From positions 1-45,437 of the forward strand of contig RDXI01000029.1 in assembly GCA_004292795.1 (NCBI GenBank): a DNA stretch of 45,437 nt. The letters are read 5' to 3'. The translations under genes and the position numbers were made by a program. Positions 904 through 42,750 of this stretch are shown in pieces (positions within the stretch are counted from its first letter, which is position 1; every line of letters begins with the position of its first letter). Source of the stretch: Bacteroidota bacterium (lineage in GTDB: Bacteria > Bacteroidota > Bacteroidia > Cytophagales > Microscillaceae). Under the pieces are notes generated by a model, which was not told where the DNA came from, made no database searches, and was given only the letters and a program-made list of their open reading frames with translations.

Positions 904-2781
904 CTATGTTTCGATGTTCAAATCCCATTGATGGATTTGCGGTTCGTGATTATAAACCCCTGTAGCACGCGCAATGTATGCTCTGATAAATTCCTCTAAC
1001 CCATTACGAAAATCTACCAATGCTTTGTTTTTGGGGTCTGTAATGGGCAAATCCTTCCAGAACAGCGTAGAGTCATTGCCAAAGAGAGGCAAGGCAGATT
1101 CATAAGGGGCAGTGAAAGCAAATTCATAATAAAAATTGACCATCTCGCCTATTACTTCCGTATTGGGTAGGTAAGATAGTAGTTGTTCGGTGCTTATGGT
1201 AGCATCAGGCGAGGGCAATTCCGCGCTTTGTAGGCAAGGCGGGAAGTTGGGAACATACGCCATGAAAGGATTGGCTACTTCGGGCATACGTGCCGCACCG
1301 TGCATATTGATACGATACAAGATGCTGGTTATCACACGCTTAAGATTTGCCTTAGAGTCCATCTTGGGCAAGCCTTGTATATTGCCTACTTCCAAAATAT
1401 CCAAAATATGTAACCAAGAATCAGTCTTGCCTGCCTCTTTTATCCAATTTTGGAGTTCTTTGTCTGTTGCCACTTGCGTATCATCAGCATAGAGGTTGTC
1501 TATTACTTTTTCGGTGTACGTTTGTGTCAGATTCCAAATTTTGAGCATATCAGCCACGATAGGAAACATATCCCAAGGCGTATTTACCGTAAAGTCTTCT
1601 TCCACGATGCCCATATTTGCCAATTCAACCAAGGGGTCATCATCAAAAAACTTTCTGTCTTTGGCATAAGTGCGCAATAGGTCTGCAAACTCAAAGCCTG
1701 AATTGATAGACGTAGGCGGGGCGGCTTGCTTCCATGTGAGCAACAGCAATAAATCAAAGGGTATTAAATAATTGCTTTGTGGTTCAAGGAATTGGTAAAG
1801 TTTATGATTGCTCGAGAGGTTGTTGTACATACACATCTGCATAGATGCCGTAACAATGTGCCAATGATACACATGACCAATCCAAATGCCATATACTGTA
1901 GCTGATGCTTTAGCGGCTTGAAGTGCGCAGAGCCAAGCCGAGTCTGTGCATTGTTTGTAGCGATAATTGGTATATTCATCATTGCTTTCAGGCTTCACAA
2001 CCGACACAGCAATAGGTTTGATTTCTTTTGTGTTGCTGTCTTGTTGCAAGAGCGTCATGGTCGCAGGTGTATAGCGCGGATAACCCTTTACCTCTTTTTG
2101 CACTTTGCATACGCTGAAGAAGCGTAAATCGATGCAAAACAATTTTTTCTCTTGGTAAAGGTTTTCCAAATCAGTGTCCCAAGTTTGGGCAAAAGCAGTG
2201 CGCACAGCTTCTATATTTTTATCACTCACTTTTTGTAAAATGAGCAAGTTGTAGGCTATGCCATACCGCGCCATCGTGTTCCAAAACTGTGTGTTGGCTT
2301 CTTCTACGTCTGTAAGGCTTTTTGCCCACGTATCCAAATACGTTTCGGTGGCTTCTCTATGAAAATTGCTCATAGTAGTCCACGACATAGCGAATTGTTT
2401 GGGTTCTTCCAAAAACATAGCACCTTGGTGTGCTTTTGCTTCTGGTTCTGTAGCCTTGAATAAGTCTTGAAACTTATTGGCTATCCATGGAACAACATTG
2501 ACACCTGTTGCCACTTTGAAGGTTTTACGCAGTTCGTTTAGTGCATCTTTGCGTAGAGAGGCTTGCGTTTTTTCGCTGTCATTGCCATACAAAAAAAAGT
2601 AGGCAGGCGCAGTTTTACCTCGTACTGTGTAGGGTACGGAGAGGGCGTTGCGGGCTTGTTGGCTCTCAGACGACCGTTTCAGAAGAAGCACTACATTCTT
2701 GGCTATCTCCTCCAAACTGGTAGGACAAGGCAAAGACGGAATGCCATTTGAAACAATGGGAATCCTAAAATATTTGTTCAT
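904..2781 (-). CDS. Divergent lipoxygenase-like protein
   Basis: The 625-residue product has the lipoxygenase iron-binding layout: His303, four residues, His308, seventeen residues, His326, with LSSNH matching the family LSxxHP segment. A second block, MHGAARM then VPNFPP (His494 to about 515), matches the family HAAVN...PNxPP region. In the family, two of the first histidines, the second-block histidine, an Asn/His/Ser four residues on, and the C-terminal Ile bind iron. Here the +4 residue is Arg498 and the protein ends in Thr, so two ligands are not canonical. No signal peptide or PLAT domain is evident, and the length fits compact bacterial enzymes. It may oxygenate fatty acids, act differently, or be inactive. 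It is monocistronic, with its own terminator. Confidence 0.75.
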   Translation of the reverse strand: MNKYFRIPIVSNGIPSLPCPTSLEEIAKNVVLLLKRSSESQQARNALSVPYTVRGKTAPAYFFLYGNDSEKTQASLRKDALNELRKTFKVATGVNVVPWIANKFQDLFKATEPEAKAHQGAMFLEEPKQFAMSWTTMSNFHREATETYLDTWAKSLTDVEEANTQFWNTMARYGIAYNLLILQKVSDKNIEAVRTAFAQTWDTDLENLYQEKKLFCIDLRFFSVCKVQKEVKGYPRYTPATMTLLQQDSNTKEIKPIAVSVVKPESNDEYTNYRYKQCTDSAWLCALQAAKASATVYGIWIGHVYHWHIVTASMQMCMYNNLSSNHKLYQFLEPQSNYLIPFDLLLLLTWKQAAPPTSINSGFEFADLLRTYAKDRKFFDDDPLVELANMGIVEEDFTVNTPWDMFPIVADMLKIWNLTQTYTEKVIDNLYADDTQVATDKELQNWIKEAGKTDSWLHILDILEVGNIQGLPKMDSKANLKRVITSILYRINMHGAARMPEVANPFMAYVPNFPPCLQSAELPSPDATISTEQLLSYLPNTEVIGEMVNFYYEFAFTAPYESALPLFGNDSTLFWKDLPITDPKNKALVDFRNGLEEFIRAYIARATGVYNHEPQIHQWDLNIET

Positions 2782-2993: not shown

Positions 2994-4904
2994 TTACCTG
3001 ACCAACGTAACACTTCCCGTTTTGCGCAAAAACTTGTTCGGATACAAGGGCGTGGCGTAGTCGGCTTGCCACGCATATACACCCGCAGGGGCAGGCGAGC
3101 CGTTGAGCGTGCCATTCCACGCTTCTTGTTTTTGACGCATGATGTGGACACACTCACCCCAACGATTGAAAATCTTAAGCTCGAACTTGGCTACATCTTG
3201 CGTAAATACCTCTAATACATCATTGAGTGCGTCTTGGTTAGGCGTAAAAGCGGTGGGGACTTCAAAAACAGGGGTACAATCTACCTCGATATTGATTTTT
3301 TTTTGACGCACCAAACAGCCACTTACAGCATCAAACACTTCGCAAACATACAAACCGTTTTCTTTCAGACTTCTGACTGTTAGCACATTGTTCGTTACGC
3401 CTTGTGTGTTCGACCATTGATAGTTCAGAACGCGCCCTTGCCTACGCAGTTCTGCCTCCTCTTCTTCTGTGAAAATGCCAAAAGAGCGAGGCGGAAACGG
3501 GCAAAGCTTGGTTTGTACGGCTATGCTGTCCGTTTCTATGGGTATCACTTCTACAGATTGCACGAAGGTACAACCGCCTATAGTGAGCGTAAGTATGTAC
3601 GTGGCTTGTTGCTCGCCTGCCCTGATGCGCTTGCAATCTGCATCAAGACAAGTAAAAGAACCATTGGAAACTGTCCAAACATAGTCCTTGCCTGAATAAG
3701 ACTCCAGAATGGTCGTTGTGCCTTCGCATTGATACACTTTTTCCTTGCCTGCAGGCAAGTTGCTTAGTGGTTTGAAGTCGTTTACTTCTAAAATATTCGC
3801 GGTAGCTTCGTCTATTTTCTCAAAATTGCACCCATATTCCAAATGCAACGTGAGTGCTTCCGTATTTTCTTGCAACGCATCTGCTTTCGGCACGAGCAAA
3901 AAGGACTTTTTCAATACACCCGCTTCCATATTGAAAGTAAACGGCAGTGCTAAAATCTTATTCCCTTCGAAAAAGAGGTCATAGTCTTGCAAGAAACTTG
4001 CCTGCCCTATGGCATTGAGGCGCATGGTTTCAAAAACGCTGTTTCTGGAACGCTCCACCGTAAAAGCGCGTTGGTCGCACCCTTCTATCAAACCGCCATA
4101 TTCTGTAACAAAGTTGGCATTAAAAGCAGGCAAGGGGCTTGTGATTGCCTCAATAAAAACGCCTGAGTCTAATTCTGCATCTTCCACATCAGCAATTTTG
4201 AGTTCCAATCTGTAGGTAGCACAAGGTACAACATCAATCTCCACTATCAAATCTTTGGTATAGCCATCATATTGAATAAGCTCGAAAGTAGGATTGTTCA
4301 AGAGCGTATTGTCGTGATAATAGGCACTGTTCAGGTTGTTGTTGATGGCTTTGATGCTAACAGGCGTGTTCGTATTGGGTACGAGAGCAATGTTTTTCTT
4401 GGTATAATTACCTCCTGCGGGGTTTTGCCCTGTGATAAAAAAGCCAAATACATCATTGAAAATATCCGACACATATTCGTTGTATTCTTCCGAAGCGAAG
4501 GTATAGCGGAAGGTAAGTTTCTTGCCTGCGGGCTTGATGTCAAAGGCAATCACACAAGCGTCTAAGGTCGCGCCTGTTACGATACCTGCCAAATCCGCAT
4601 CTCCTGCCGATTCCCAAGCTTTACTTATATTTTGCGAGTCGTTTTTTCCTTGTGCATTGGTGGCTAAGCCTGTGGTAATGAGCATACCTTTTTCCATAGG
4701 CAAGCTACCGCCTGTTCTTTCATACACGCCAAAGGCTTCGTTTCTGCCTGTAAGCGTTACGTTGCTGATGACTACGCCCTTGCCTACCAACTGATTGAGG
4801 ACAGTGGCAACATCTGCGCCTTGTGTTACTTGGATTTGTGCAGACGCACAAGCGCATAGCAGGCAAGTTACACAAAAGAACGATAAAATAAATTTTCGAA
4901 ACAT
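2994..4904 (-). CDS. T9SS-exported surface protein (choice-of-anchor L-like domain, type B sorting domain)
   Basis: The 636-residue product has a signal peptide (MFRKFILSFFC ... ASAQ). An N-terminal region of about 250 residues carries GMLITTGLATNAQG and FASEEYNEY...DVFGFF, which are hallmarks of the choice-of-anchor L family. A beta-rich middle follows, with several cysteines. The last ~90 residues are a gliding-motility-associated C-terminal (type B) domain: FTPNQDALNDVLEV, then IFNRWGE, then WNGTLNGSPAPAGVYAW. Such domains direct export by the type IX system and anchoring on the cell surface. The start at 4904 is chosen over 4928 because the promoter element at 4926-4933 overlaps the upstream candidate. 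It is a likely adhesin or surface-matrix protein; the substrate is unknown. Confidence 0.88.
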   Translation of the reverse strand: MFRKFILSFFCVTCLLCACASAQIQVTQGADVATVLNQLVGKGVVISNVTLTGRNEAFGVYERTGGSLPMEKGMLITTGLATNAQGKNDSQNISKAWESAGDADLAGIVTGATLDACVIAFDIKPAGKKLTFRYTFASEEYNEYVSDIFNDVFGFFITGQNPAGGNYTKKNIALVPNTNTPVSIKAINNNLNSAYYHDNTLLNNPTFELIQYDGYTKDLIVEIDVVPCATYRLELKIADVEDAELDSGVFIEAITSPLPAFNANFVTEYGGLIEGCDQRAFTVERSRNSVFETMRLNAIGQASFLQDYDLFFEGNKILALPFTFNMEAGVLKKSFLLVPKADALQENTEALTLHLEYGCNFEKIDEATANILEVNDFKPLSNLPAGKEKVYQCEGTTTILESYSGKDYVWTVSNGSFTCLDADCKRIRAGEQQATYILTLTIGGCTFVQSVEVIPIETDSIAVQTKLCPFPPRSFGIFTEEEEAELRRQGRVLNYQWSNTQGVTNNVLTVRSLKENGLYVCEVFDAVSGCLVRQKKINIEVDCTPVFEVPTAFTPNQDALNDVLEVFTQDVAKFELKIFNRWGECVHIMRQKQEAWNGTLNGSPAPAGVYAWQADYATPLYPNKFLRKTGSVTLVR

Positions 4905-4925
4905 GATTGAGCTGGTTTTGAAATG

Positions 4926-4933
4926 CAAAAGTA
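4926..4933 (-). promoter_or_regulatory. -7 promoter element for the T9SS surface protein
   Basis: Minus-strand TACTTTTG matches TAnnTTTG, 21 bases upstream of the ATG at 4904. It rules out the ATG at 4928 as the main start. Confidence 0.6.
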
Positions 4934-34649: not shown

Positions 34650-35696
34650 ATGAATACAGAATTTGACAATCTTTTGCGCCTACTCGCAAGCACAGATGAG
34701 CCAAATGTGCGTTTGGGACTGCTATTAGCGCGTAACTACACCACAAAGATAGAGGCGCATTTTGGCTATAGCTTGCAAGACTTGGAGGCTTTATTTGATT
34801 TTTTGATGCAATACGAGGCTTGGGATTCTAAAACGGCTTTTTGGGAGATAGAGGTGTTACATTTATCAAGAAAAAATCTTACAGCTTTGCCCAAAGCTAT
34901 TGGATATCTATCAAAATTAAAGTATTTATATTTAGACAATAACCAATTACAAATTATTCATTCTGAAGTAAGTCAATTACAAAATCTAACAAATTTGAAT
35001 TTGGGCAATAATCAACTACAAAGCTTGCCTCCTGAAATAGGGCAATTACAAAATCTAACAAATTTGAATTTGGGCAATAATCAACTACAAAGCTTGCCTC
35101 CTGAAATAGGATTATTACGAAATCTAACAAATTTGGATTTGGGCAATAATCAACTACAAAGCTTGCCCCCTAAAATAGGGCAATTAAGAAATTTAACAAG
35201 GGCATATTGGGCAAATAACGAGCTTCAAACCTTGCCTGCTGAAATAGGAAAACTACAGAAGTTGGCTACGTTAAATGTAGGATACAACAAATTAAAAACT
35301 TTTCCTATAGAAATATGTCAATTAAAAAACTTGTATAGACTTCTTATGTATGGCAATCAACTTAATTGCTTGCCTCCTGAAATAGGGCAATTAAAAAATT
35401 TAGACTATTTGAGTTTAGAGGGCAATCAACTTAAAACTTTGCCTGTTGAAATAGGTAAATTAAAAAAACTGGGTAAATTGTATTTAGAAAACAATGAACT
35501 TCAAACCTTGCCTGCTGAAATAGGGCGATTGAAAAATTTGAACTACTTGTATTTGAGCAACAACCCTTTACAGTCGTTGCCTAAAGAACTTTGTCGCCTC
35601 AAAAGTACAGGCATCTACATTGCTGATACACCTGAAAATATGTATATCCCTGAAAGATTAAAGCAAATGAATACCTTAAGTTATACTGAACGATAA
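34650..35696 (+). CDS. Leucine-rich-repeat protein
   Basis: The 348-residue product has an N-terminal helical region (about 1-65) followed by about eleven 23-residue repeats of the form NLTNLNLGNNQLQSLPPEIGQLQ (shown in part), typical of bacterial LRR domains that form a curved protein-binding surface. It lacks a signal peptide or kinase/ROC domain, so it is probably cytosolic. Neighbouring repeats are almost identical at the DNA level, meaning recent expansion. ATG 34650 is preferred to the TTG at 34641. It lies between two copies of a restriction-modification gene 5' end. Role unknown. Confidence 0.85.
   Translation: MNTEFDNLLRLLASTDEPNVRLGLLLARNYTTKIEAHFGYSLQDLEALFDFLMQYEAWDSKTAFWEIEVLHLSRKNLTALPKAIGYLSKLKYLYLDNNQLQIIHSEVSQLQNLTNLNLGNNQLQSLPPEIGQLQNLTNLNLGNNQLQSLPPEIGLLRNLTNLDLGNNQLQSLPPKIGQLRNLTRAYWANNELQTLPAEIGKLQKLATLNVGYNKLKTFPIEICQLKNLYRLLMYGNQLNCLPPEIGQLKNLDYLSLEGNQLKTLPVEIGKLKKLGKLYLENNELQTLPAEIGRLKNLNYLYLSNNPLQSLPKELCRLKSTGIYIADTPENMYIPERLKQMNTLSYTER
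34974..35180 (+). repeat. Three near-identical 69-bp tandem repeats inside the LRR gene
   Basis: Copies start at 34974, 35043 and 35112. Copies 1 and 2 are essentially identical; copy 3 differs at a few positions. The period equals one 23-residue LRR unit, so copy-number changes would stay in frame. Confidence 0.92.
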
Positions 35697-42483: not shown

Positions 42484-42750
42484 TAATCTAATGTACTATT
42501 TCGTTAGGTCAATGTATCACTCTGTTAGGTCAATGTATTATTACGTTAGGTCAATGTATCACTTATTTTGCTCAAATTCATATACATTGGCTTAACGGAG
42601 TAGTACACTGGCTTAACGGAGTAGTACACTGGCTTAACGGAGTAGTACACTGGCTCAACGGAGTAGTACACTGGCTCAACGGAGTAGTACGCTGGCTCAA
42701 CGGAGTAGTACGCTGGCTTAACGAACTAGTACGCTGGCTTAAATAAGTGA
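42484..42750. repeat. Inverted array of 21-bp repeats (3-4 copies left, 8 copies right)
   Basis: Right arm: eight exact-period 21-bp units from 42583 (TACACTGGCTTAACGGAGTAG type). Left arm: three complete units at 42501, 42522 and 42543 plus a partial, whose reverse complement (TACATTGACCTAACGAAGTGA type) is the same motif with mostly transition changes. The arms face each other across about 19 AT-rich bases (42564-42582). No spacers, so not CRISPR. The exact 21-base period, two helical turns, would put each unit on the same DNA face. No other gene is seen in 42310-42876. Confidence 0.95.

Follow-up and report, generated by a model that had tools for sequence, protein, structure and literature searches.

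The window, a stretch of 45,437 nucleotides (positions 1 to 45,437 of contig RDXI01000029.1, assembled from a bacterium of the Microscillaceae, Bacteroidota), carries near one end a gene whose product has the spaced histidines of a lipoxygenase together with Arg and Thr at positions where Asn and Ile would be expected. The locus therefore raises the question of whether such a protein is an ordinary lipoxygenase, an enzyme with a different chemistry or metal, or a descendant of the family that has given up catalysis.

A lipoxygenase-family gene and its relatives

The gene lies at 904-2781 on the minus strand and encodes 625 amino acids in a single open frame with an ATG start and a TAG stop at 904-906. 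The Pfam model Lipoxygenase (PF00305) matched residues 205-528 of the product at 61.3 bits (E = 8.6e-17) against a curated cut-off of 23.6 bits, and thus the lipoxygenase likeness recognized in the preliminary description is far above chance. Five relatives tested with the same model scored 36-57 bits, all above the cut-off. The window gene was the sole PF00305 match in its host genome, none of the 14 control genomes contained a match, and NCBIfam yielded no match. Among PDB sequences, the best match of the window protein was coral 8R-lipoxygenase (E = 1e-10, single-sequence HMMER), while a profile of the clade described below found 53 PDB sequences, all of them lipoxygenases and the best being human ALOX15B (2e-23). 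The same profile aligned with other bacterial lipoxygenases in HHalign at 99.8% (E = 1.6e-29).

Eleven full-length relatives, 38-44% identical to the window protein, were recovered from Bacteroidota and probably Planctomycetota (four by a scan of GTDB genomes, six by whole-genome searches and one by a plasmid scan), giving a clade of 12 proteins with the window included. One further hit, L007, from a genome belonging to the same family as the window, proved to be the relative L003 found again and was counted once. The probable planctomycetal member, L002, comes from a metagenome-assembled genome titled Candidatus Kuenenia stuttgartiensis (NCBI: Planctomycetota). The plasmid relative (WP_309942117.1) is encoded on pAT1 of Aureibacter tunicatorum, is 44% identical to the window protein, and is annotated as 'lipoxygenase family protein'; this gene comes from a named culture-collection strain (NBRC 107587). 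Lipoxygenases had been described as uncommon in Bacteroidota, and only 7 of 395 sampled genomes indeed exceeded the Pfam cut-off. Members of the clade itself were thinly spread: 1 of 395 sampled genomes of the window's class had one, as did 2 of 15 from its family, 4 of 199 from the family to which L004 (titled Saprospiraceae) belongs, 3 of 150 from that of L005 (titled Fluviicola) and 2 of 45 from the order that includes L002.

In a likelihood tree of the 12 members and 19 other bacterial lipoxygenase-family proteins, the 12 formed a single clade (support 100/100), separated by a branch 3.1 changes per site long. The point at which the clade joins L022 may reflect long-branch attraction, as a program warning indicated, and the clade itself is unaffected by this. 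A second Bacteroidota lipoxygenase family (L008-L013, one locus each) shares with the window's clade the phylum, matches to PF00305 and three His residues, but it differs in keeping Asn (His/His/His/Asn), in ending with -RTNI and in having open frames of about 730-760 amino acids; it groups apart in the tree, and its profile does not link directly to that of the window's clade (HHalign 5.6%). Pfam catches this second family weakly.

True lipoxygenases have been defined by a His/His and a His/Asn cluster (PMC6612559), and the P. aeruginosa enzyme has five published ligands, His377, His382, His555, Asn559 and Ile685 (PMC5712309). Scored against these five positions, the window protein agrees at three and differs at the Asn, and its chain end is a candidate for the carboxylate, which does not depend on residue type; we have therefore filed it as belonging to a variant lipoxygenase subfamily and not as a canonical lipoxygenase. 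Our literature search returned no paper that describes this subfamily or an Arg at the site, which is weak evidence of absence as subscription papers lay outside the search. Judged by its sequence and predicted fold, the window protein is a genuine lipoxygenase-fold protein, if an unusual bacterial one, and belongs to a rare, deeply separated subfamily. A phage or viral origin was rejected, no match being present in phage records or viral contigs, and a decaying or frameshifted gene was rejected on account of the open frame, the full-length relatives and the low dN/dS reported below.

Residues of the putative metal site

His303, His308, His326, His494, Arg498 and the terminal Thr were all found where the preliminary description had placed them, although not all of them have the role that it implied. 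Across the 12 proteins 77 of the 625 columns are invariant, and the only His residues among them are 303, 308 and 494. His303 (codon 1873-1875, minus strand), which aligns with the His that serves canonical lipoxygenases as first iron ligand, and His308 (codon 1858-1860, minus strand) form a His-x4-His pair and are the putative first and second metal ligands. Both sit in a segment, TVYGIWIGHVYHWHIVTASMQMCMYN (residues 295-320; 1822-1899, minus strand), that is predicted as a helix in both structural models, and residues 295-314 of this segment are the most conserved 20-residue stretch of the protein (87% against a mean of 56%). His326, by contrast, had been counted with this pair as part of the metal block, a role that does not hold since it is not a lipoxygenase metal ligand and is replaced by Asn in two relatives. 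The claim that the His block matches lipoxygenases closely is thus sound for the motif only, because over the whole protein identity stays below 20% in a structure-based alignment.

The putative third ligand is His494 (codon 1300-1302, minus strand; invariant in 12/12), whose register is uncertain by one residue. Single-sequence HMMER opens a gap of one residue just before it and so aligns it with the canonical third His, while MAFFT, HHalign and clade-profile HMMER against the PDB leave the helix ungapped, so that His494 falls one position N-terminal to the canonical His and is followed by additional residues; it is therefore probably one residue earlier in the helix than in canonical enzymes. 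Since it is the sole invariant His of the C-terminal half, His494 is almost certainly the ligand nonetheless. A single residue may have been lost from its helix, and with such an offset the geometry of the site could differ more than has been assumed.

Four residues after His494, where lipoxygenases have Asn, His or Ser, stands Arg498 (codon 1288-1290, minus strand). Arg is present in 11 of the 12 members, encoded by CGN codons in some and AGR codons in others, with Asn only in L003. In the ungapped register the canonical Asn instead falls at position 500, where only 6 of the 12 have Asn. By these alignments the usual Asn ligand is unconserved under either register, while the structural equivalence of position 498 to the Asn/His/Ser site is insecure because of the one-residue question. 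The chain ends in Glu624-Thr625 (907-912, minus strand), of which Glu624 is invariant and Thr625 is shared by 11 of 12 members, L003 ending in -Glu-Val. Both Arg498 and the terminal Thr recur in every member but L003 and are conserved traits of the subfamily, as the preliminary description had suspected. A pairing of R498 with T625 as covariation was considered and set aside, as it rests on the single exceptional sequence, L003. All 12 chains terminate at one alignment column even though the loop just before it varies in length, as is expected if the free terminal carboxylate, the presumed fourth protein ligand, binds the metal.

Of the 19 bacterial lipoxygenase-family proteins from outside the clade, 18 carry Asn at the fourth position after the third His, and a C-terminal Ile is found in most. 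The one that lacks this Asn, at 2143-3984 of L039 (a Nostoc cf. commune plasmid), has a Gly in its place and another at the C-terminus, a further non-canonical metal site. In addition, one genome (G1464) encodes two lipoxygenases, L031 ending in Thr and L034 ending in Val, both of which keep the Asn.

The differences of the clade extend beyond the ligand positions. Five and four residues before the first His, its members have Gly and Ile/Val where the nearest canonical bacterial group commonly has His and Glu/Gln, and what follows the third His is unlike other lipoxygenases throughout; we infer from these two changes that the surroundings of the metal have been remodelled as a set. dN/dS was at most about 0.06-0.19 (saturated dS set to 3), which indicates that selection on the gene is strongly purifying. 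Because the members use both CGN and AGR codons for this Arg under such low dN/dS, it is maintained by selection and not simply inherited unchanged. By the same evidence the window gene is neither decaying nor the carrier of a one-off mutation, since the helix of His303 and His308 is the most conserved part of the protein and selection is purifying.

Predicted fold and comparison with characterized lipoxygenases

Two AlphaFold2 models, of the whole protein and of the core, were built from five sequences and reached mean pLDDT values of 50.9 and 58.0, respectively. The top structural matches of both models were all lipoxygenases (Foldseek E = 3.5e-12; VIA-align Z = 23.2 for both models, with 355 residues aligned at an rmsd of 3.9 in one of the two comparisons), in agreement with the mainly helical catalytic fold, with its long central helices, anticipated from the sequence. 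His303 and His308 fall within a helix in both models, the mean pLDDT of which is only 51 and 58. Around Arg498 and the C-terminus (residues 494-571 and 606-625) pLDDT drops below 50, and the metal site is accordingly not visible in the models.

Compared with Pseudomonas aeruginosa LoxA and Cyanothece CspLOX2 (PF00305), the clade has in common the catalytic-domain fold, the His-x4-His helix, a third His, the D-x-x-L-Q-x-W and P-N motifs, a fixed chain end and the lack of an N-terminal PLAT match. It differs from them in having just 14-19% identity in structural alignment, Arg for Asn, Thr for Ile, a third His that is apparently one residue off, no RxxGxNP motif and, in many members, an N-terminal membrane anchor. 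Human ALOX15B, which has a PLAT domain, resembles the clade in having no Asn as fourth side-chain ligand; however, its Ser is a possible weak ligand, which Arg is not, and its third His is in the canonical register. The manganese lipoxygenases of Gaeumannomyces and Magnaporthe are secreted fungal enzymes of the same fold that provide a precedent for another metal. They keep the Asn ligand, and their C-terminal Val is a precedent for that of L003.

Probable mechanism and alternative explanations

A clear N-terminal hydrophobic anchor was found in 7 of the 12 members (19-residue mean hydropathy 2.6-3.2) and a borderline one in an eighth; the window protein, L002, L019 and L037 are without it. 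In the anchored members positively charged residues follow the anchor; under the positive-inside rule, their catalytic domain would face the cytoplasm.

We consider it most probable, at about 0.58, that the protein is an active lipoxygenase-fold metalloenzyme that oxidizes membrane lipid at a site made of three His and the C-terminal carboxylate without the Asn ligand. The metal, most likely non-haem iron, would be bound by His303, His308 and His494, with the main-chain carboxylate of Thr625 as a further ligand, and the canonical side-chain ligand (Asn, or His/Ser in animals) would be absent. As Arg498 is an implausible metal ligand, it would most likely belong to the second sphere, where it could pair with the C-terminal carboxylate or with Glu624, or hold a metal-bound oxygen species or the carboxylate of the substrate. 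An unsaturated lipid chain would be oxidized at the membrane, most relatives having an anchor and a predicted cytoplasmic catalytic domain, and the window copy lacking the anchor. The chemistry may differ from that of textbook lipoxygenases, and a tentative extension of this proposal is that the shifted third His, the dropped Asn and the Arg beside the 3-His/carboxylate site serve another reaction with another membrane lipid as its substrate at the cytoplasmic face, e.g., a polyene or some other non-PUFA chain that is cleaved or peroxidized.

It is also conceivable, if doubtful, that the protein is an ordinary lipoxygenase in function, forming hydroperoxides from polyunsaturated fatty acids, with Arg and Thr as substitutions that these variable sites tolerate. 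The Asn position does vary among known enzymes, being Ser in human ALOX15B in our profile alignment; the soybean mutants N694G and N694H folded sufficiently for crystallization (1y4k, 1fgm); L003 carries Asn at 498 from within the clade; and L031, an otherwise canonical bacterial lipoxygenase, combines that Asn with a C-terminal Thr, which by itself is therefore not special. Mere tolerance is nevertheless hard to reconcile with an Arg fixed in 11 of 12 members when most member pairs are only ~40-45% identical, or with the remodelling of the metal surroundings as a whole, in the Gly-Ile/Val before the first His as well as in the residues after the third. Furthermore, the PUFA synthase marker pfaD is missing from most member genomes: it exceeded its cut-off in 1 of the 11 searched whole (G1156), compared with 5 of 32 other genomes, and was not found in the Aureibacter plasmid record. 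Endogenous PUFA synthesis as the source of substrate was thus rejected for lack of association, and an endogenous polyunsaturated substrate supplied by a PUFA synthase is not evident, a point that also weighs against the favoured metalloenzyme.

A non-enzymatic descendant, in which catalysis has been lost and the protein now binds lipid or serves a structural role, had been raised in the preliminary description and appears improbable. A lost ligand position, an altered C-terminal residue and the long branch between the clade and other lipoxygenases could all have this appearance, yet none of the three ligand His varies within the clade, conservation peaks in the helix of His303 and His308, the C-terminus does not shift by even one residue and purifying selection is strong, while pseudoenzymes usually drop ligand residues in at least some members. 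There is only a slim chance that the metal is other than iron, for example manganese, since no feature of the clade specifically indicates manganese, although the fungal manganese lipoxygenase has the same fold (structural match Z = 19.8) and sequence does not fix the metal.

For the active metalloenzyme that we favour, the value of the clade lies in what it offers for comparison. The weak Asn ligand and the C-terminal residue of lipoxygenases have so far been studied through mutants, one enzyme each, and a natural lineage in which both positions are replaced, with the site under strong selection and with L003 carrying Asn and Val, provides natural test material. The lipoxygenase-fold enzymes of Bacteroidota and their neighbours are also more diverse than the canonical set.

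Gene context yields no function through an operon or pathway, because neighbouring genes do not recur around the members, except between the closest relatives L005 and L044. In the window the upstream neighbour (2994-4928, same minus strand) encodes a protein with a C-terminal type IX secretion signal domain (CHU_C). In the Pantoea ananatis plasmid, the lipoxygenase gene (L038, 2434-4709) lies immediately upstream of genes annotated as lysozyme and lysis protein. Elsewhere in the window, a 33-bp tandem repeat of 3.8 near-perfect copies occupies the extreme end of the contig (28-153), two adjacent arrays of 21-bp tandem repeats lie at 42490-42742, and an array of 69-bp tandem repeats at 34963-35554 possibly encodes the repeats of a repeat protein.
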